A DNA stretch of 27,035 nucleotides from Schoenoplectus triqueter (lineage: Eukaryota > Streptophyta > Magnoliopsida > Poales > Cyperaceae). The stretch spans positions 1 to 27,035 of the forward strand of contig CAXKVV010002030.1 in NCBI GenBank assembly GCA_964058805.1, in the 5' to 3' direction. A program made the translations under genes and the position numbers. Numbering within the stretch: position 1 is the first letter of the stretch; each line of letters opens with the position of its first letter. The notes beneath the pieces were generated by a model. The model was not told where the DNA came from. It saw only the letters and a list, made by a program, of their open reading frames with translations, and did not search any database. Below, one piece after another: positions 4,700-22,933 of this stretch.

Positions 4700-6980
4700 T
4701 TGGATCGACGCCTGAGGTAAATCCCAAAATATCTAAGACCCATATATATGTAAATGATGAACATGTAAACATAGTACCCAATTTGGGCCCATAATCTCAC
4801 AATACGTCAACTCTGACAAATGATCGGACAAAAAGAAGATTGTGAATCTGATATAGTTTCTTTATTTCTTTGTCTTAAAAAAAAAACTAATGACGACTTA
4901 ATAAAAGCGCCAGAACAAAGAACAATTTGGAACCAAAACGGAGTAAATTTATAGGCAATTGAATATGGTAAAGGAAAAGGTAATAGTATTAATTCGTTAA
5001 ACAGAGAAGGCGCCATACTTGGCTACAAATCGTCCCAAGCGAGATAACATTAATCGAGCTAGATAGCATCCATCAAGAGAAAACAAGCACAGAATCTGTA
5101 AATATCATTTTCTTTTTATTTGTTAATGCAAGAATGACACTGGATGAATGATGTACGGGATGTTAGTTACATAATAATGAATTAATGATGATGACGATGA
5201 TGATGATGATGATGATGATGATAGAAGAATTAGTTGTAGTCATTCAAAAGTTATGTTGAGAAGTTGTGAAGTATTTTGTACGTGATGTTTCTTTTTTAAA
5301 AAAAATCTTGATCACACAGTAACAATATTTGCATGAACTACCAATAATGTCACAATATATTTATGATTTCCATCTTTCAAGATTCTTTATATAAGATTTT
5401 GAAGATTTATGGTGACAACCATACATAATCGGTTGGTTCACAGTGAGGAATTGGAGGAAACTAATTTTCTATTTACACCTTAAAGTTTCAAACATAACAA
5501 TACGAATGTGTATTTTTTAAACACTTAATCAAAACTCATATTTTATTGTTGTTCATGTTAACCATGACTTTTAAGTTTTTATGTTCTCACAAATTTGAAA
5601 TAAAACAAATAAATACTGATCAATTGCAACTCAACCATGAGGATCTTATTTATTATAAGAAGACATTTTTTGACAAGAATTATAAATCTTGATATCTTTA
5701 TCTTCTCCACTATTATTAGTTTGTGCCTGATTTTGTTTAAAAAAATATGAACCAAAAACATTTAGTGTCAAAATAATAATATGGAATTGAGTTAGCCGTA
5801 CTTCCAGTTAATTGCGATACTACTGCCTCCAATATAACAAATCACTTCCCATTTTTTCTTCTAAATTTTAGCTTTGAATATCGTAAATTGGTGATTGACA
5901 TATTTCAAGATCAATAATTGTTGTTCCTCATTTTCGCTTGAATTTGCATTAATTTCATCAAAAACTCCTCAATTGTTATTAGTATTGGTTTGCATTGGTT
6001 TACTATTATTATTCACAATTTGGTACACACAATTGCTAAACTGATGATGTGAGATGAGGTGGATCAATGTTGGAAAAGGAAAAATGAAGACGTGCTTTTT
6101 TATATTATCTACTGAAACTCGAAAGAAACTTTATTTAAGAATGTAATTTGTGAATTTTTATCAATGTATTTGCATAGTCGCTTAATTAATTTTTGATAGA
6201 AACAATCTTAATTATGAGTTGTTATTCTGCTACCATCCAATTTCTAATCTCATATACCAGCTTGCTCCAATCTTGTACTCTTAAATTCTACAGATCAAAC
6301 TATGGATAGTCATCAGAACTAAATGATTAGAAAATAAATGGACGGGTAATACGAGGCCCCAGGAACCCATAATTACAGCTGAATGTCCCTTTGCATATCT
6401 AACTGATAAGTGATGACAGGGCATGATACAATACATATATAATTGAAGATATTTTTTTTTGTTTAGAAAAAGGAGAAATATACGTTAATCAAGGACACAA
6501 ATTGTTTCAAAAGCTATTAATTTTGTTCTTTTATCCAAAACTGTCTCAGAAGCTATTAACATATTCAGCTATTTCTTAAACAAACACGCAGAAACAACAA
6601 AGAACAAACAAAAATAGTAGTTAACCTGTATAGTTTTAATTACTCAGCAAATATAACCAACCATATTCCCCAAATGGTGTAATATGCACTATCAGAAATT
6701 TAGATTAACGCAATTTTAACTAGAATTGTGTATCAGAAGAATCAGAAGCCAATATTGAAAACAAAAATTTCTGATTAGAATGAGATACTACAGAATTTTT
6801 ATTCTTTTGGAAACAATTAGGGCTGGGCTAATTATAAAGCATCTAAGAATTGGAGAGTCCATTTTTTGTCATGGTAATTTTTTATTATACCCATTTTATC
6901 CCTCAATTAGACGGATAATATTTATTTTTGGTTGATCGAACGTATGTGATCCCGTCCATTGATCCCCTCTTTCTCTCCAT
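4700..6980. other. Intergenic, no gene seen
   Basis: AT-rich DNA with the ATG microsatellite and short frames only (60-70 codons, low-complexity, rich in Ile/Leu/Lys/Phe), none with a recognisable domain. The short inverted repeat AATTAG/CTAATT near 6816-6834 is the only structure noted. Confidence 0.55.
5185..5222. repeat. (ATG)n microsatellite
   Basis: About 12-13 ATG units with one C interruption near 5195. It lies in intergenic DNA and is not part of a reading frame. Confidence 0.95.
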
Positions 6981-6984
6981 TTCT

Positions 6985-7602
6985 TTCTCTTATATACTAT
7001 TATTTCCATAATATTATTTTTTTATTTAGCAACCTTGTGCATATTTGGTAAGAAATTAATGGTGATAATATATGTTAGAATAATTTACTTTTCTTGCCAT
7101 AAAAATCATGAATCATTAACTCATATTGTGCAAAAATCCCATCCAAGATTAAATATAGTCTTTATTATAGATTTTCTTTATAATTTGGTGAATTTATAAT
7201 TTAATATTAGATAAATGTGATTTTTTTTATCTTATAATGTTTTAATGTTTAAATAAAAAAGTCTGCTGCAACTAGAGGTGGCAGAACCCGACCCGACCCG
7301 ACAAACCCGTCCGACCCGTCCGGACCCGAACCTGACCCGACCCGATTTTTTAAGAAAGTCAAACTGACCCGACCCGACCCGAACCCGACCTGACCCGACC
7401 CGACCCGAGATCAAATGACCTTCAATCCAATCGAAATCTATCAACGATCTAAAAAAACACAACATGTAAATTGACCCGACCCGACCCGACCCTGACCCGA
7501 CCTGATTTCTTCCAGAAAGTCAAACTGACCCGACCCGAATCTGAACCCGACCCGACCCGCCCGATTGCCATCTCTAGCTGCAACGCGCGGGTATATAGCT
7601 AG
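6985..7602 (+). mobile_element. Non-autonomous Helitron, 3' end clear and 5' end tentative
   Basis: Removing the hAT insertion joins AAAAAAGTCT to GCTGCAACGCGCGGG and then TATATAGCTAG, followed by T at 7603. A GC-rich hairpin region a few bases before CTAG, then T, is the plant Helitron 3' signature, and a similar end occurs at 17811-17837. The 5' end is a guess at the TCTTATATACTATTATTT string near 6987, which resembles the TC(T)ATACTATTA starts of plant Helitrons. No Rep/helicase coding sequence. The 3' end is fairly safe, the 5' end is not. Confidence 0.5.
7273..7576. mobile_element. Non-autonomous hAT element built of CCCGA units
   Basis: 304 bp. Ends TAGAGGTGGCA and, reversed, TAGAGATGGCA (10 of 11 match), flanked by perfect 8-bp duplications GCTGCAAC at 7265-7272 and 7577-7584, which together are diagnostic for hAT. 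The interior is almost entirely CCCGA/GACCCGACC pentamers on the plus strand, plus two copies of an AAGTCAAACTGACCCGA block (from about 7356 and 7517). There is no coding capacity; the 77-residue reading frame on the minus strand is a by-product of the pentamers. It would need a transposase supplied in trans. Confidence 0.9.
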
Positions 7603-9707: not shown

Positions 9708-10014
9708 AACCCACACACACCAAACGCATTAAGAAAACAACCTCAAATAGTCAAATCTGATCACGTAAACAAAATGCAGGTCCCACCATTCACCTCATTG
9801 TGAGCTCTCTCTAAATCAATTGTATTTAAGCAACTGAACACATGTCAGCTATCAACCACCTTTGCAGTTTGCCAAATCAGCAGGACAAGAGAGCACGTCA
9901 TGAAAGAATTAAGTTGAAATTAAAAAAAACTATAAAAAAAAGAAATTAATTTTTTTTCACAAAGAGCATGTTCAAAGTTCAAAAAAGCAACTCTGTTGCC
10001 TTCGTATCTTCACC

Positions 10015-12750
10015 TCATTCCAAGGGTTTATTCATAAGAATTGTAAACGTCACCTCATTGGGCTCAAGGCCATTGGAAATCATCTCATGCAGCAATTCCA
10101 TTGCATTGTCAAGTTCACCTTTCTTGCACAACCCGTCTATAAGAGTGTTGTAAGTCACAACATCGGGATTTCGGCCTTCTGAAATCATGCTATGCATAAC
10201 CTCCTTTGCCTTCTCAACTTCACCTTTCTTGCACAGCCCATTTATAAGAGTATTGTAAGTCACTACATCAGGTTCCTCACCATTGGAAATCATGCTATCG
10301 AGCACCTCCTTGGCCTTCTCAATTTCACCTTCCTTGCACAGCCCATCTATGAGAGTGTTGTAAGTCACAACATCAGGCTCATGCCCTTTGGAAATCATTT
10401 CATGCAGATATGCTTTTGCCGACTTAATTTCACCTTTCTTGCACAATCCATTTATAAGAGTGTTGTGAGTTACTACATTGGGCTCAAGCCCTTCTGAAAC
10501 CAAGCAATTCAGCAACTCCATTGCATTCTGCATTTCACCTTTCTTGCACAGCCCATCAATAAGAGTGTTGTAAGTCACAACATCAGGCTCTTTCCCTCTG
10601 GAGATCATGTCATGCAGCAACTCCTTTGCTTTGTCAATATTACCTTGCTTGCACAATCCATCTACAAGAGCGTTGTAAGTCAGAACATCAGGTTCTTGCC
10701 CTTTAGAAATCATACTATCGAGCACCTCCTTTGCCTTCTCAATTTCACCTTTCTTGCACAACCCATGTATCAGAGAGTTGTAAGTTACCACATTGGGTTC
10801 CAGACCTTGGAGAATCATGCTATCCAGCAGCTCCTTTGCCTTCTGAATTTCACCTTTCTTGCACAACCCATTGGTGAGAGTGTTGTAAGTCTTGACATCA
10901 GGCTTGTGCCCTTTGGCAATCATGCTATCCAGTACCTCCTTTGCTTTCTCAATTTCATCATTCTTGCACAAAGCATTTATAAGGATGTTGGATGTCACAA
11001 CATCAGGCTCATGCCCTATTGAAATCATGCTATCCAGAACCTCCTTTGCCTTCTCGTTTTCACCTTTCTTGCACAACCCATCTATAAGAGTGTTGTAAGT
11101 CACAACATCGGGTTCGTACCCTCTGGAAATCATTTCATCAAGCAACTCCTTTGCCTTATCAATTTGACCTTTCTTACACAACCCATTTACAACAGTGTTG
11201 TAAGTCACGACATTGGGCTCGTGCCCTTTTGAAACCATGCTATGCAGCACCTCCTTTGCATTCTCAATTTTACCTTTCTTGCACAGCCCATCTATAAGAG
11301 TGTTGTATGTTACAACGTCAGGCTCATGCCCTTTAGAAATCATACTATCGAGCACCTCCTTTGCCTTGTCAATTTCATGTTTCTTGCACAACCCATCTAA
11401 AAGAGTATTGTAAGACACAACATCAGGCTCATGCCCTTTAGAAATCATGCTACTCAAAACCTCATTTGCTTTATCAATATTGCCCTTCTTGCACAGCCCA
11501 TCTAAAAGAGTGTTGTAAGTCACAATATCTGGCTCGCGCCCTTCAGAAAGCATATTATCCATCAACTCCTTTGCCTTCTCAATATTCCCTTTCTTGCACA
11601 GCCCATATATAAGAGTATTATAAGTGACGACATCTGGTTTGTGCCCTCTAGAAATCATGCTATCCAGCAACTCCATTGCCTTTTCAATATTATCTTTCTT
11701 GCACATCCCATCCAAAAGAGTATTATAAGTCACGATATCGATTTCGTGCCCCTTGGAATTCATTTCATGCAGAAACTCCTTTGCGTCCTCAATTTCACCT
11801 TTCTTGCACAACCCATTTATAAGAGTGTTGTAAGTCATAGTATCAGGTATGACCCCAGAAGGACACATTTGTTTATACAAATCAAACGCTTTTGTGAGTT
11901 CACCTTCCTTACATAACTCATCTATAACTGTGTTATACGTGATCACAGAGGGTTCACAGTCACCACCTTGTTTAACCATTTTAAAAAGCAGACGAAGGAC
12001 TAAGCCAGTGTTGCTTTTGGAGCAAAGCCCCTTGAGAAGAATGTTATATGAGAACACATTTGGTATGCATCCTAACTTAGGCATTTTGTAGAGCATAATG
12101 TCTGCAGCCTCGCCGATCCTATTTTCTGAACAAAGGCAGTCAAGTATTGGACTGAAAGTCACGGTCTCAGGTCTGTGACCCTTTTTGAGAAGCAGTCCAA
12201 GAAAAGAAAAGGCTAGGTCAAACCGATTCATATGGGCACAATAGTTGATCATTATCCCATAGGTATATCTATCAGGCCTGATTCCTTCAGTTTGGATTAA
12301 ACGGTTGAAGAGGGAAAAAACGGTGGGGTAAGAGTTGTGAACCAACGCGGTTAGTAGCTCATTAAAAGGAACAACTGAGTGTGGAGGAGGGTTCTGGAGA
12401 GCCAACAGATAGTGAAATCGGATAAGCAACTCTTGGGTAGAAATGGTACTAGCCTTCCTTTTTCGCCTTCTTTCCACCTTCTCTGTCTCCAGCTTCCCCT
12501 TGCTCTTGAAATGCTGTTGTTGGTGTGTCCTCCTCCGAACCTTCTCAAGACTGTTACCAAGATTGGCGCCACCGGTGCAATTAATTGAAGAGGGTGGTAG
12601 TTTTGTTCGGCTAGTGATTCTCTGAGGTTGACATTTGGATTGGGGTGCAGAATAGCAGAAAAGACAGAGGTCATGATGAGAAGACAATGGGGATTTGGAT
12701 GGGAATAGGGAAGCTGAAGGTGAAAGAGGACAGAAGGGCAGATGCATCAT
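10015..12750 (-). CDS. P-class PPR protein, RFL-like N-terminus plus highly uniform 18-motif array
   Basis: Single-exon gene of 911 residues. The start chosen is the ATG at 12750 (A at -3, followed at once by a second ATG); the frame is open seven codons further only to a GTG, which a plant nuclear gene is not expected to use. Residues 1-125 are rich in Ser, Pro and basic residues, with few acidic ones near the N-terminus, which fits an organelle-targeting presequence. Motifs 1-4 (126-268) are divergent, 35, 35, 36 and 37 residues long, and resemble restorer-of-fertility-like proteins (e.g. the GCIPNVFSYNILLKGLC block). Motifs 5-22 (269-898) are all exactly 35 residues and nearly consensus. 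A 13-residue partial motif ends the protein. No E, DYW or SMR domain is present, so sequence-specific RNA binding in mitochondria or plastids is inferred, not catalysis. Residue 5 is Asn in motifs 4-22; residue 35 is mostly Asp. Certain as a PPR gene; RFL membership is likely; the organelle is unknown. Confidence 0.96.
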   Translation of the reverse strand: MMHLPFCPLSPSASLFPSKSPLSSHHDLCLFCYSAPQSKCQPQRITSRTKLPPSSINCTGGANLGNSLEKVRRRTHQQQHFKSKGKLETEKVERRRKRKASTISTQELLIRFHYLLALQNPPPHSVVPFNELLTALVHNSYPTVFSLFNRLIQTEGIRPDRYTYGIMINYCAHMNRFDLAFSFLGLLLKKGHRPETVTFSPILDCLCSENRIGEAADIMLYKMPKLGCIPNVFSYNILLKGLCSKSNTGLVLRLLFKMVKQGGDCEPSVITYNTVIDELCKEGELTKAFDLYKQMCPSGVIPDTMTYNTLINGLCKKGEIEDAKEFLHEMNSKGHEIDIVTYNTLLDGMCKKDNIEKAMELLDSMISRGHKPDVVTYNTLIYGLCKKGNIEKAKELMDNMLSEGREPDIVTYNTLLDGLCKKGNIDKANEVLSSMISKGHEPDVVSYNTLLDGLCKKHEIDKAKEVLDSMISKGHEPDVVTYNTLIDGLCKKGKIENAKEVLHSMVSKGHEPNVVTYNTVVNGLCKKGQIDKAKELLDEMISRGYEPDVVTYNTLIDGLCKKGENEKAKEVLDSMISIGHEPDVVTSNILINALCKNDEIEKAKEVLDSMIAKGHKPDVKTYNTLTNGLCKKGEIQKAKELLDSMILQGLEPNVVTYNSLIHGLCKKGEIEKAKEVLDSMISKGQEPDVLTYNALVDGLCKQGNIDKAKELLHDMISRGKEPDVVTYNTLIDGLCKKGEMQNAMELLNCLVSEGLEPNVVTHNTLINGLCKKGEIKSAKAYLHEMISKGHEPDVVTYNTLIDGLCKEGEIEKAKEVLDSMISNGEEPDVVTYNTLINGLCKKGEVEKAKEVMHSMISEGRNPDVVTYNTLIDGLCKKGELDNAMELLHEMISNGLEPNEVTFTILMNKPLE
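10057..11946 (-). repeat. 105-bp tandem repeat, 18 units, encoding PPR motifs 5-22
   Basis: Eighteen head-to-tail units of exactly 105 bp, each encoding one 35-residue PPR motif, with no indels across 1890 bp. Units share long identical DNA runs: about 40 bp ending in the same CACCTCCTTTGCCTT string (plus strand) is found in motif 16 (from 10698) and motif 10 (from 11328), 630 bp or six units apart. Identity at synonymous positions points to recent duplication or gene conversion and not only to selection on protein. Copy number is likely to vary between individuals, and short-read assemblies could misjudge it. Confidence 0.93.
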
Positions 12751-13299
12751 TTTAGCCTTATTTGGTCTCACTCCAGGATATTTAAGCTTTTTTAACTAAC
12801 AAGATTGAGGTTTTTTTTTCTCTTTCAAGTGGCAGCACGTCTATTTTTCTATTACTACATTGAAAAGACAGTAAATCACCAATACAGTTTATGGACAACA
12901 ATGCAATTTTGGTTATTGAAATTGTAAAATCTTGTCATTCCCTAGAGGTCTAGAGGACCATGAACTTTAAAAATCAGCTAAAGAAGCAGTTTTATGCATG
13001 TAATCAAATTGAGTTAAAGCTGAAACTCCTAAAGTTTTATTAGACTGGTCTTCACACTTCAAAATATATCTGTGCTGAGTATGAACTGAAACCTGTTCAT
13101 TATCAGGCCCGGAATATGCAAACTGGCTAGACCAACTTTGCATGCTTTTGTCATTCTATACATGTCCCAATTCCAAGAAGGTAGACACACTAACAGCTAA
13201 AAATGAAAACAAAGCATGAGAAGCTCTGGGTTGTAAAGATGAATGCAGTTGAAGCACTGTAAAGTTCAGTGACTCAATCCACACGATAAAATGCAACGC

Positions 13300-18676: not shown

Positions 18677-19062
18677 GAGAAGGGATACAATTACCACCAT
18701 TTTGGTGCCACATCGGTGCCATTAAAATTAAATATCAAATAACTATTATTTAAATTCTTAAATATCAAAACTAATTGAAGGAATATTTTATAAATATCAT
18801 TTTATATATGTAAATAAAAAATTATATTATTTCAATATCATTTATATAGGCATCAAGCGTTAATAAATTCAACGGACCAAATTGTACAGTTTAGACACGT
18901 TACTTGATGGTTATCCAAATAAAGTTATTTTTTTATATTTTTCATATACATACAATTGAGATGATATAGAATACATCTGACCGTTCACATTTTTAAATTT
19001 ATACATAAATAAATAAATAAATATCATGGACACAAAAAAAAATGATAATTGAATCCCTTCAC
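18677..19062. mobile_element. MULE-like MITE with 9-bp target duplication
   Basis: 386 bp. The left end reads GAGAAGGGATACAATTACCA and the right end, reversed, GTGAAGGGATTCAATTATCA: 17 of 20 positions agree. Both sides are flanked by the identical 9-mer ATAAATTTT (18668-18676 and 19063-19071). A 9-bp duplication with terminal repeats beginning with G suggests the Mutator superfamily. The interior is AT-rich with no coding capacity. The target 9-mer is A/T-only, so its weight is moderate; the inverted repeats carry the call. Confidence 0.75.
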
Positions 19063-19479
19063 ATAAATTTTACGGTACAACGGAGAATATGAATTCCATA
19101 ACACTGGCGGCCCAATTAAAAGGCTTGATATATTCTCCTCCGACAACCATTACTATGCTACGGTCGGGGACAAATAACGAAGACCTATATACAAAGCTCC
19201 ATGCCAAAATTGAGGGGGGAACTAAAAAATATTTTATACCCGGAATGAACAATCTTAGTAATTAGGATAGACTTTGAACATATAAAATTCTGTATTTATC
19301 ACTATCATGTGTTTATTTAGTACTGCACTTTAACCCTGAACAGAGGAACTATTATATTCTAGTACAAGTAAATTGTGAATATGTGATCCAATCACAAGGC
19401 AGTAGAGAACTTGGAACATACTAAAAGCAACAAGCAAACAATGAGTCAGCAAATGGTGAAAGGGGGAAAAAACCCATTA

Positions 19480-19736: not shown

Positions 19737-22700
19737 CTAGCTAGGTTCTGTACCAGTGTTACTCGATGAAGTTGGAGAAGGGTAGGGAAATGGGTAGTGG
19801 TGGTGAGATGGCCATGAGACCTTCTCGGGTTGGCATGGACATGGCGCCGCAGCTGGAGGTGGGACCGGGTGAGCAATAAATGTGGGTACATCTTGTCCAG
19901 GCATTAGTACTGATACACCTTTTGCATACACTGACATCTGCAATTTTGCGTAAAATGAAGAATAATAATCAGTCAACAATAAACATGCACTAGACTTGGT
20001 GATTTTGTGCCTTTTCAGATAGTGGCCTCTATTTAGTGAAAGTTGATCACTTTGTCACTTCAGTATAAATCAGATCATGCCTAAAGCATGTGCACATCTA
20101 CATTTGTGGTTGTCTAATAGTAATATCCATCAAGGGATTTGTGCCAATTTATCTTTGGCTCCACACAATCCCAGCATTAATTTCATACCCTACCTAAAAA
20201 GTTCAAGTTTTGATTCTTCTAAATTTTAATATATGGTGCGTCTTGCATTAGGAGCAGTGGAGCACACATAAAAAAATCATAGCTTATCAGTTCTCTCAAC
20301 ACTCTACCTTTCTCTCTCTTGTTGTCAGCTCCAATTCTCCTCTCATCTCACTCAGGGACTCAGGGTAAACCTCCTTTGCTCTCTCTTATTCTCCTATACT
20401 ATGTTTCCCGAATGATAAAACTCCTTTTATTTTATTTAAAAATGGTAGAAATTTTGCCAACTAATTTAAAAGGGAAAAAAAACTCTACTCTGATGCATTA
20501 GCAAATAAAAAGAGAATTGACAATCTAGTCAACAAATAAAAATAATCTCGTCTCTTAAATGAATCAAAACTATTTAAAATGCACTGAACTTACAAGGAGG
20601 CGCAAACTCTACTTATCAACCGTTTACATTATAATATTAAATATATTCTATTATAAAATTGAACCTACATATATTCTTATTACAATTTTTAGGAATTAAT
20701 GCATACAAAAATAAATGATATATATTCATAATATAGTTTGTTACAACTTACAAGAATTTTATATGCTTCAAAGGCAGCATTTTTTTATATGAATGTGTAC
20801 TAAATAATAAATAGATGTATAGTATTATTGATTGATACTTTCTAATGCGCCACATTCTTTCTTTTATTTTTTTTTTAATTTGTAGGGGCCCATATTCAAC
20901 AAAAATAAAAGATTTATTGCTAAGTGTACCGCCAGTAATAACTTCTAATTTAATGATTGATTAAGAAGCGCTAGGCTAATAGATATTCATAATCCGAAAA
21001 ATCCGATTCGAATCTGCACAAATGGATCCGCATATGTATCCTTAAAATATATTCGTTAGTTTATTGGATCCGCATATGAATTCTAGAAAATGATCCATCC
21101 AATATAATGGATCCGCATTTGAATCTTATAAGATTTGAATTCGAATCCGTTATGAATTCGATAAATAAATATAATTATATCATATGTCAATTAATAAAAT
21201 AGACATGTACAATTTAGTACAAATTGAAGAGCAATGTTTATGTTTCACTCTGTATTGATTCCTAAAGTTAAATAGTAGTTATTGTATTAATTAGATAGAT
21301 TTTATTATATTATTTGATGTTTATTGTATGTTTTGAAAGTTGAAACAAATAGTTATGATTGTTGTTACGTTTATGATTGGAACAAATAATTTTAAGATTG
21401 CTATAATAGTAAATGTGAATTATGATGGTAGTTACGTTTGAAATAATTTTTCTCTTGTCATATATTAATTATGTTATTTTTAATATTATTATAATACAAG
21501 ATCTGAAATATGATCCGAATCCGATCCGAAATTCGCTATAATAGTAAATATGAATTTGCATTTGAATTCTCAAAATTTTATTGGATACGGATCCGCATAT
21601 GGATCTTATAAATTTTTAATGGATTCACATTTGAATCCTCCGAGATCCGATTCGAATCGGATCCATTGACAGCCCTAAGAAGCGCACAAAATTCTTTTCA
21701 GATTGAAGGGAGACAAAATTACTTATTATAGATATGTGGTTGCAGCAAGTTTTTTTGGTAAAACATCATGGCAACATTTTTACGGCAGTAGTATTTAAAC
21801 TATACAATTCCCAAAAATTTTTTTGCTCATGTGACCATATAAATAAGAAAAATCAAATGAAATCAAAATTTACAATTACTCGAGGAAAAATAATCTAAGC
21901 ATCAGAAAACAACATCAATAGTAAAAAAAAATTATTAGAAATTTAAGTAATACATTATGAAATGTTATGTAAGATCCTTTCTCTTGTGTGCATCTCGAAT
22001 GTGCCAACCATGAAAAGGGTAATTGCCGGATAAATACTTTCACGATGTAATTTCTAAATTACTCTCCACGAGGTAAAATATAATGTAGCATATTTCCGAA
22101 AGTTATGCTAGCATTTTTCTAACGCATAATTAGATTTTATTTTCATGGTAAGATAAAGCAAACACATAACACCTAATTGTAAGCTACCTCAGATTGTCCT
22201 TCATCAATTCTCAATTTGGTTACTCAACAGCTAAAACAATTTATAATTTTTTTTGAAGTAATATCCTTAAAAAGATTCTAAATTCAATCAATTTTACCGA
22301 GACATCACAAACAATACGTAAGCATTGGTGCTTTACCAGTTACACCTACTGGTTTGTAAAAAGTGAGCTATAAACCCTAAGAAGTTTTATTCCCACATCA
22401 AGGTCCAAGGAACAAAAGCGGGAGCTGTACTACTGTACTAGGCAGTAAAATAACAGGGTCTAGACCACAAAGTTAGCAAGTCAAAAGCAGAAAAGCTCAG
22501 ACAAGAGTAAAAGGTAAGACAGCTTTATCCCATCCCCAAGGTAAAAAAGCCAAAAGAGGGAGAAAAGGTATCTCACCTCGGGAGACGGGAAACAAAGCTT
22601 GTTCGCCTCGAGATCTGCGCCTCCGCTCCTCCCCCAGAGTCTAGTCCTCCTCCTCCCGTTCCGATCACCTCCCGTGGAGTCACCGCCGACAGAGCGCGGC

Positions 22701-22933
22701 CTGAGGAAGTGCTCGAAGAGCGCCATGAAGAGGAACATGGAGACGAGAATGGCGGTGGCGACAAACCCGAACGACACCGCACTGACGGAGGAAGTACCGT
22801 CAGGATCGCGCCATCTGTTTTCTCCAGCGATGGATCCACTCTCCTTCCCCACAGGAGGTCCCCCGCCACTGCTACCACCTCCTCCCTTGATAGGCGCCAT
22901 GGCTGGACTAATTAGAACCGTCGCCTCTCTCAT
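19737..22933 (-). CDS. Small single-pass membrane protein, two exons (22577-22933 and 19737-19937)
   Basis: Exon 1 (22933-22577, 119 codons) ends CCCGAG|GTGAGA and exon 2 (19937-19737) begins after TTGCAG, both in phase 0, giving a 185-residue protein that ends at a TAG. Residues 1-50 are Gly/Ser/Pro-rich; about 53-77 form one hydrophobic segment (FVATAILVSMFLFMALFEHFL) followed by basic residues, which suggests a single-pass membrane protein; 85-110 are Arg/Gly-rich. Exon 2 carries the block VLMPGQDVPTFIAHP and a Pro/His/Ser-rich tail. From memory, this combination of one membrane helix and a C-terminal MPGQDVPTFIAHP block occurs in uncharacterised plant-specific proteins, so no function is claimed. 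Start choice is open: the first ATG is at 22933, but the ATG at 22900 sits in a stronger context (GCCATGG) and would give 174 residues. The exon 1 DNA is far more GC-rich than its surroundings. Confidence 0.85.
19938..22576 (-). other. Intron of the membrane-protein gene (2639 bp)
   Basis: GT-AG intron in phase 0, with donor GTGAGA at 22576-22571 and acceptor TTTTGCAG ending at 19938. Without splicing, the reading frame continues for 31 hydrophobic codons to a stop at 22481, a run with no resemblance to the family's C-terminus. The intron is AT-rich and holds one recognisable insertion, the hAT element at 20972-21677. I see no other gene or RNA in it. Confidence 0.85.
20972..21677. mobile_element. 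Non-autonomous hAT element in the membrane-protein gene intron
   Basis: 706 bp, flanked by perfect 8-bp duplications AGAAGCGC at 20964-20971 and 21678-21685. The right end reversed reads TAGGGCTGTCAATGGATCC, a standard hAT terminus; the left end (TAGGCTAATAGATA) is eroded. Subterminal DNA at both ends is full of GGATCCG, GATTCGAATC and CCGATTCG repeats, which in hAT elements serve as transposase-binding sites. The AT-rich middle encodes nothing. Confidence 0.85.

Follow-up and report, generated by a model that had tools for sequence, protein, structure and literature searches.

A sedge PPR protein with a uniform motif code predicted to read uridine-rich RNA

What does a natural PPR protein recognize when nearly all of its repeats carry the same code, and is such uniformity kept by selection or left over from a founder motif? 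The question is raised by a 27,035-base stretch of Schoenoplectus triqueter DNA (hereafter the window, meaning the whole stretch analysed), which belongs to contig C1971 of an 82-Mb assembly in 2,086 contigs and holds a single long open frame on its minus strand, with its first ATG at 12750-12748 (residue 8 when counted from an upstream GTG) and its TGA stop at 10017-10015 (Table 1). The Pfam family PF13041 (PPR_2) matches this frame in 21 stretches with 1131.7 bits, and neither a DYW nor any other added catalytic domain was found among the best 25 of 30 Pfam families. With tandem 35-residue motifs and no added catalytic domain found, the window gene is a P-class PPR protein. Its most striking part is a 35-residue tiling that starts at residue 276 and runs through 18 consecutive motifs (5 to 22), all with Asn at position 5, combined with Asp at position 35 in 14 motifs and with Asn in the other four (motifs 11, 15, 18 and 22), exactly as described in a first-pass annotation of this DNA.

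This unbroken run of 14 N5/D35 (ND) and four N5/N35 (NN) motifs predicts a core target of U6-Y-U3-Y-U2-Y-U3-Y, that is, 18 pyrimidines of which 14 would be U. The codes of the four preceding motifs (N/D, G/E, S/N and N/S), which lie within the segment used below as a query against sedge and rice homologues, were re-derived with the same outcome, and the full string proposed earlier, U-?-A-C-U6-Y-U3-Y-U2-Y-U3-Y, agrees with the published PPR code. Are these motifs simply recent copies of one another? Motif pairs in the array show a mean DNA identity of 75%, with a median synonymous divergence (dS) of 0.64 and a median nonsynonymous divergence (dN) of 0.21, and no higher-order repeat is prominent (mean identity 0.70-0.77 at lags of 1-14). 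Recent tandem copying was judged unlikely, and so was an assembly artefact through duplicated or collapsed repeats, no motif pair exceeding 87% DNA identity; from the median dS, the growth of the array is not very recent.

How rare is such an array? The comparison sample consisted of 245 of 249 fetched PPR proteins (those with at least six motifs), the 249 being the listed matches of searches with the window protein and with one other PPR protein, a frame of this genome that resembles At4g31850 and has a best match of 50% identity (120 of 1039 matches listed in one search with the window protein), so that it is biased towards relatives and does not represent all PPR proteins. Within this sample, ND is the commonest code (788 of 3667 motifs, 21.5%). 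In the window protein Asn5 continues without a break through 19 motifs, motif 4 included, as against a maximum of nine in the 245 database proteins (found in two of them) and of seven in a further 21 frames from this genome, which bears out the earlier view that so uniform an array is rare. The longest pure ND run of the array, six motifs, is equalled by two other proteins among the best 15 rows; the unusual feature is the unbroken Asn5 with either Asp or Asn at position 35, and not a pure ND run. Among the next most uniform members of the sample are proteins of Linum tenue (P0126) and Cucurbita argyrosperma (P0129), with Asn5 runs of nine and eight, mostly ND or NN. Among the papers listed in literature searches, mainly open ones, there was no natural uniform or U-reading PPR array from plants, which does not prove their absence.

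The best standard of comparison for the gene is its own relatives. Four close paralogues lie on contigs C1516, C199, C1677 and C72, with 57-63% identity across the principal repeat parts of each long frame, and a fifth relative, of classical type, is cut by the end of contig C773. When only those motifs are counted whose successor begins 35 residues on, or which come last (20 of 22 in C1516, 13 of 14 in C199, 11 of 12 in C1677, 20 of 21 in C72 and 19 of 21 in the window gene), the mean amino-acid identity between motifs is 0.59-0.68 in the four paralogues and 0.61 in the window gene. The four being about equally regular, the near-consensus scaffold is a habit of the family; restorer-of-fertility-like (RFL) motifs are reported to be closer to the PPR consensus than other P-class motifs (PMC5075784). 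On this point the first-pass annotation needs correcting: the near-consensus scaffold is a general RFL trait that also occurs with mixed codes, and it is the frozen code that stands out. Asn5 is present in 18 of the 18 window motifs compared (those retained for carrying Asn5, which are motifs 5-22, so that motif 2 is dropped; C773 left out) versus 31 of 64 motifs in the four paralogues (Fisher p = 2.2e-5). The contrast persists with motif 2 kept (p = 1.8e-4), with all motifs called by the hidden Markov model (HMM; 19/21 versus 32/69, p = 3.1e-4), with C773 added (p = 6.5e-5), and with both C773 and all HMM motifs (8.4e-4). Could the uniform code be a mere effect of closeness to the consensus? 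This was rejected, since C72, with a more homogeneous scaffold than the window gene (0.68 versus 0.61), carries mixed codes and a mixed position 5.

The history of position 5 points in the same direction. Its entropy in the window array is zero, the lowest of the 35 columns; when columns are ordered by rising entropy, it comes 23rd, 35th, 32nd and 34th in the paralogues. On motif trees built from 99-base alignments without codons 5 and 35, Fitch reconstruction gives no amino-acid change at this position in the window gene versus 5, 5, 6 and 6 in the paralogues, although the remaining columns of the window gene average 3.6 changes; the code thus seems to be frozen and not simply homogenised. 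The relative rate of the paralogues would lead one to expect 7.3 changes, and the probability of none is then 6.7e-4. The third base of codon 5 did change, three times (AAC in 14 motifs, AAT in 4). The protein body differs from the four paralogues by dN values of 0.31-0.39 and dS values of 0.71-0.96 (132 codons), and judged by the resulting dN/dS of ~0.34-0.55 it is under constraint. Selection keeping a U-reading code thus appears likelier than a pure founder effect. Diversifying selection on positions 5 and 35 is reportedly stronger in clustered RFL genes than in singlets (PMC7380019), and the window gene behaves like an extreme singlet.

From which lineage would such a gene come? Residues 95-330 are closest by identity, among 22 matches, to PPR proteins of Rhynchospora (four proteins, 44-48%) and Oryza meridionalis (46%), which we take to be of RFL type judging by rice Rf1a, and not from a database label. 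Descent from the RFL clade is likely on this comparison, and the gene is placed among the P-class PPRs as a likely RFL derivative that is no standard RFL. It shares with Poales RFLs (Rhynchospora P0051 and P0062; rice, PMC5075784) the many near-consensus motifs and the paralogues grouped with broken copies, and differs from them by the lack of a detectable RfCTD-like tail, by an added leader, and by a uniform rather than a mixed code (P0062, for example, reads NN TN ND NN TN TN SN ND TS ND ID). The sedge members share a C-terminal segment, that of P0051 being 72-95% identical to six others, which presumably corresponds to RfCTD. When seven such Rhynchospora segments were compared with the window, neither an RfCTD-like tail nor a separate downstream exon was found: the best matches, at 29-32% identity, fall on PPR motifs of the frame itself, and the one match outside the frame with E below 1 lies at 19010-19222 (E 0.92). 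Deletion of this C-terminal domain is described as abolishing cleavage by RFL proteins (PMC11094755, citing Huynh 2023). Behind the frame on C1516, 126 bases may be left over from the C-terminal segment known from sedge RFLs (L010, 4685-4810; best E 3.8e-4), which would fit a loss of the C-terminal domain in this clade. At the other end, the leader is alignable with the leaders of the four paralogues and absent from C773 and from four aligned Rhynchospora homologues; in all five proteins that have it, the first 16 residues are free of Arg and Lys. This composition argues weakly against a standard mitochondrial signal, without amounting to proof of a plastid one.

The reading favoured here, to which we give slightly less than an even chance, is that this P-class and likely RFL-derived protein acts as a passive clamp on long U-rich organelle RNA, and not as a guide for cutting. 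According to this scenario, the array would have grown by internal duplication from one Asn5 motif, after which selection would have held the code while the scaffold diverged. The protein is predicted to enter an organelle, the plastid being slightly likelier than the mitochondrion, and to lie along its RNA with the N-terminus at the 5' side, each N5/D35 pair reading U and each N5/N35 pair U or C. Covering the RNA could then block exonucleases or keep the stretch unfolded, a likely effect insofar as no cleavage domain was found. Since the registers of such an array are nearly equivalent, U-rich RNA could be bound in many positions and a single site would not be needed. With sizes and base compositions assumed, chance alone would give an organelle genome ~0.001 exact 18-nucleotide sites, and ~0.6-0.9 U-rich sites with at most two mismatches. 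The assembly gave no match for COX1 or ATP6, one for rbcL (a 79-residue frame) and a truncated one for psbA/D (a 277-residue frame), and therefore appears to lack an organelle genome as such. The psbA/D fragment, of plastid type (C823, 9319-9969), has a tRNA-His gene on the same locus and is likely a transferred piece of plastid DNA.

Several observations weigh against this clamp model, and three other explanations draw on them to different degrees. The array may owe its uniformity to neutral homogenisation, that is, to recent growth out of a single Asn5/Asp35 motif through unequal crossing over and gene conversion, with a founder effect and no selected U-rich target. Of the 18 window motifs, 17 fall in one clade (tree support values not considered), so that the motifs are not independent, and in a comparison with the four paralogues each of the 18 is nearest to another motif of its own gene. 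The array therefore likely grew from within, as has been described for RFL genes (PMC5075784). The C1516 paralogue (972 residues; L010, 1662-4577) has duplicated 7-8 of its motifs internally, the paired motifs being 88-98% identical in DNA, which looks like a snapshot of array growth. The other columns of the window gene undergo a mean of 3.6 changes on the motif tree, and with this average taken as the expectation, zero changes at position 5 has a probability of 0.027; the contrast between replacement and third-base changes is borderline (0:3 versus 22:11, p = 0.051). Asp35 alone is not significantly enriched (14/18 versus 36/64, p = 0.11), and Asn5 is found in six of the eight motifs of the classical paralogue C773. 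Homogenisation has to reckon, in turn, with the age of the motifs, which are no recent copies, with the mixed position 5 of the more homogeneous C72, and with an Asn5 that is as invariant as Cys12, Lys13, Ala20 and Gly31, and we consider it somewhat unlikely, if the strongest of the three competitors.

Could the protein instead be an ordinary mitochondrial RFL, binding one U-rich site of a single transcript, possibly linked to sterility, whose cleavage it promotes? Its body is closest to the sedge and rice proteins taken as RFL type, and several related copies, some of them with stops, are grouped on C1516 and C1677, as RFL genes are (PMC5075784, PMC7380019), another broken copy lying on C105 and one copy only on the window contig. 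Broken relatives with stop codons or short frames were located at 9620-11163 of C1516, 1-8000 of C1677 and 75851-77050 of C105. The composition of the leader does not tell plastid from mitochondrion: a first stretch of 16 residues without basic residues also occurs in one of eight proteins named 'chloroplastic' and one of 16 named 'mitochondrial', which were picked by hand from listed matches and are likely fragments in some cases. Nor does the code alone allow a target to be named, sites with up to four mismatches being expected by chance 63-71 times per organelle genome under the same assumptions. An ordinary RFL is nonetheless improbable, since no RfCTD-like tail was found, the leader is without basic residues at its start, and the code is frozen, in contrast to the diversifying selection on the two code positions (5 and 35) of clustered RFLs (PMC7380019). 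The end of the frame suggests yet another possibility, namely early decay of a gene that has been cut short in its last motif, has lost its target and keeps its code by mere chance. The TGA comes after 13 residues of motif 23 and is followed by an 11-codon remnant, and the sister copies on C1516, C1677 and C105 contain stops. Such decay is very unlikely for a gene with 918 open codons and the body dN/dS given above; C72 also ends inside its last motif, so that the terminus varies in this clade.

If the window protein is indeed a clamp on U-rich RNA, what are its closest known counterparts? Its best sequence matches among solved structures (PDB) are designed PPR proteins, with cPPR-Telo1 and dPPR-U10 as the top two, in line with the resemblance to designed arrays pointed out in the first-pass annotation. 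Like the window array, dPPR-U10 (PDB 5i9f) is made of tandem 35-residue near-consensus N5/D35 motifs; it aligns without gaps with window motifs 6-14 over 221 residues, and 19 window motifs have a mean identity of 51% to the dPPR design unit. It differs in being synthetic, with 10 motifs between PPR10 ends, as opposed to a natural protein that has a leader and 18 such motifs, four of which are N5/N35. The structure of dPPR-U10 was determined with its U-tract RNA bound, and the dPPR structures show one base per repeat, with Asp35 selecting U through a water bridge (PMC4837458). NN binds U and C alike at ~15 nM, and dPPR-U8N2 proteins bind at ~20-75 nM (PMC4837458). The nearest natural precedent is KPAF4 of Trypanosoma brucei, in which successive repeats share one code and a homopolymer is read: it was singled out through five T/N repeats in a row and in vivo is predominantly on short A-tails (PMC6329795). 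KPAF4 differs in having seven repeats, in reading adenosine and in acting in the trypanosome mitochondrion, the likeness drawn here being one of code. Another natural PPR protein of trypanosomes, the 27-kDa KRIPP11, resembles the predicted window protein by its specificity for a homopolymer tract and differs by size, organism and base, since it binds runs of at least four G, preferably in quadruplex form (PMC6242908). PfPPR1, which has ten motifs of 35 residues, shows a preference for UUAU, present in 20 of 50 selected clones (PMC6899631).

Rapid change of the code under diversifying selection is a known trait of restorer-type PPR genes, in contrast to the drifting scaffold and static code of the window gene, which together with its own sisters forms a clean natural contrast and predicts a class of targets, U-rich tracts. 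A bolder proposal, for which we see a small chance only, is that a general poly-uridine-binding organelle protein has evolved in a plant lineage from a restorer-type PPR, which would have gained a new plastid leader, dropped the cleavage domain and frozen its fast code for the reading of U; it would then be the natural counterpart of dPPR-U proteins and the uridine analogue of KPAF4. If the prediction of U-rich targets holds, nature would have reached the same uniform array as protein designers did, and a long natural binder of U-tracts would be usable as a tool.

Table 1. Features of the PPR gene in the window (positions of the window; all on the minus strand)
Feature	Position	Description	Basis
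PPR open frame	10015..12771	918 residues from GTG	sole long open frame in window
N-terminal leader	12445..12750	102 residues before RFL-like body; Ser/Thr/Pro-rich; no Arg/Lys in first 16	alignment
Motifs 1-4	11947..12375	codes ND, GE, SN, NS; lengths 35, 35, 36, 37 residues	motif calls
Motifs 5-22	10057..11946	18 x 35 residues; Asn5 18/18, Asp35 14/18, Asn35 4/18	motif tiling
Motif 11	11212..11316	NN; predicted U or C	motif tiling
Motif 15	10792..10896	NN; predicted U or C	motif tiling
Motif 18	10477..10581	NN; predicted U or C	motif tiling
Motif 22	10057..10161	NN; predicted U or C	motif tiling
Start of motif 23	10015..10056	stop codon after 13 residues; no sedge-type C-terminal domain found behind	frame reading
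Possible rest of motif 23	9982..10014	11 codons resembling the rest of motif 23, then another stop	frame reading; likeness to C1516 C-terminus by eye

Elsewhere in the window, an Rfam scan returned nothing at gathering level, and a 150-residue open frame on the minus strand (22481-22933), Gly-rich at its start and containing a hydrophobic stretch, has no Pfam match. An element of ~440 bp (6833-7272) is present in at least 40 further copies in the genome at 95-96% identity; many of these copies continue as the window does from 7577 onwards, the window copy having ~300 extra bases rich in GACCC pentamers.

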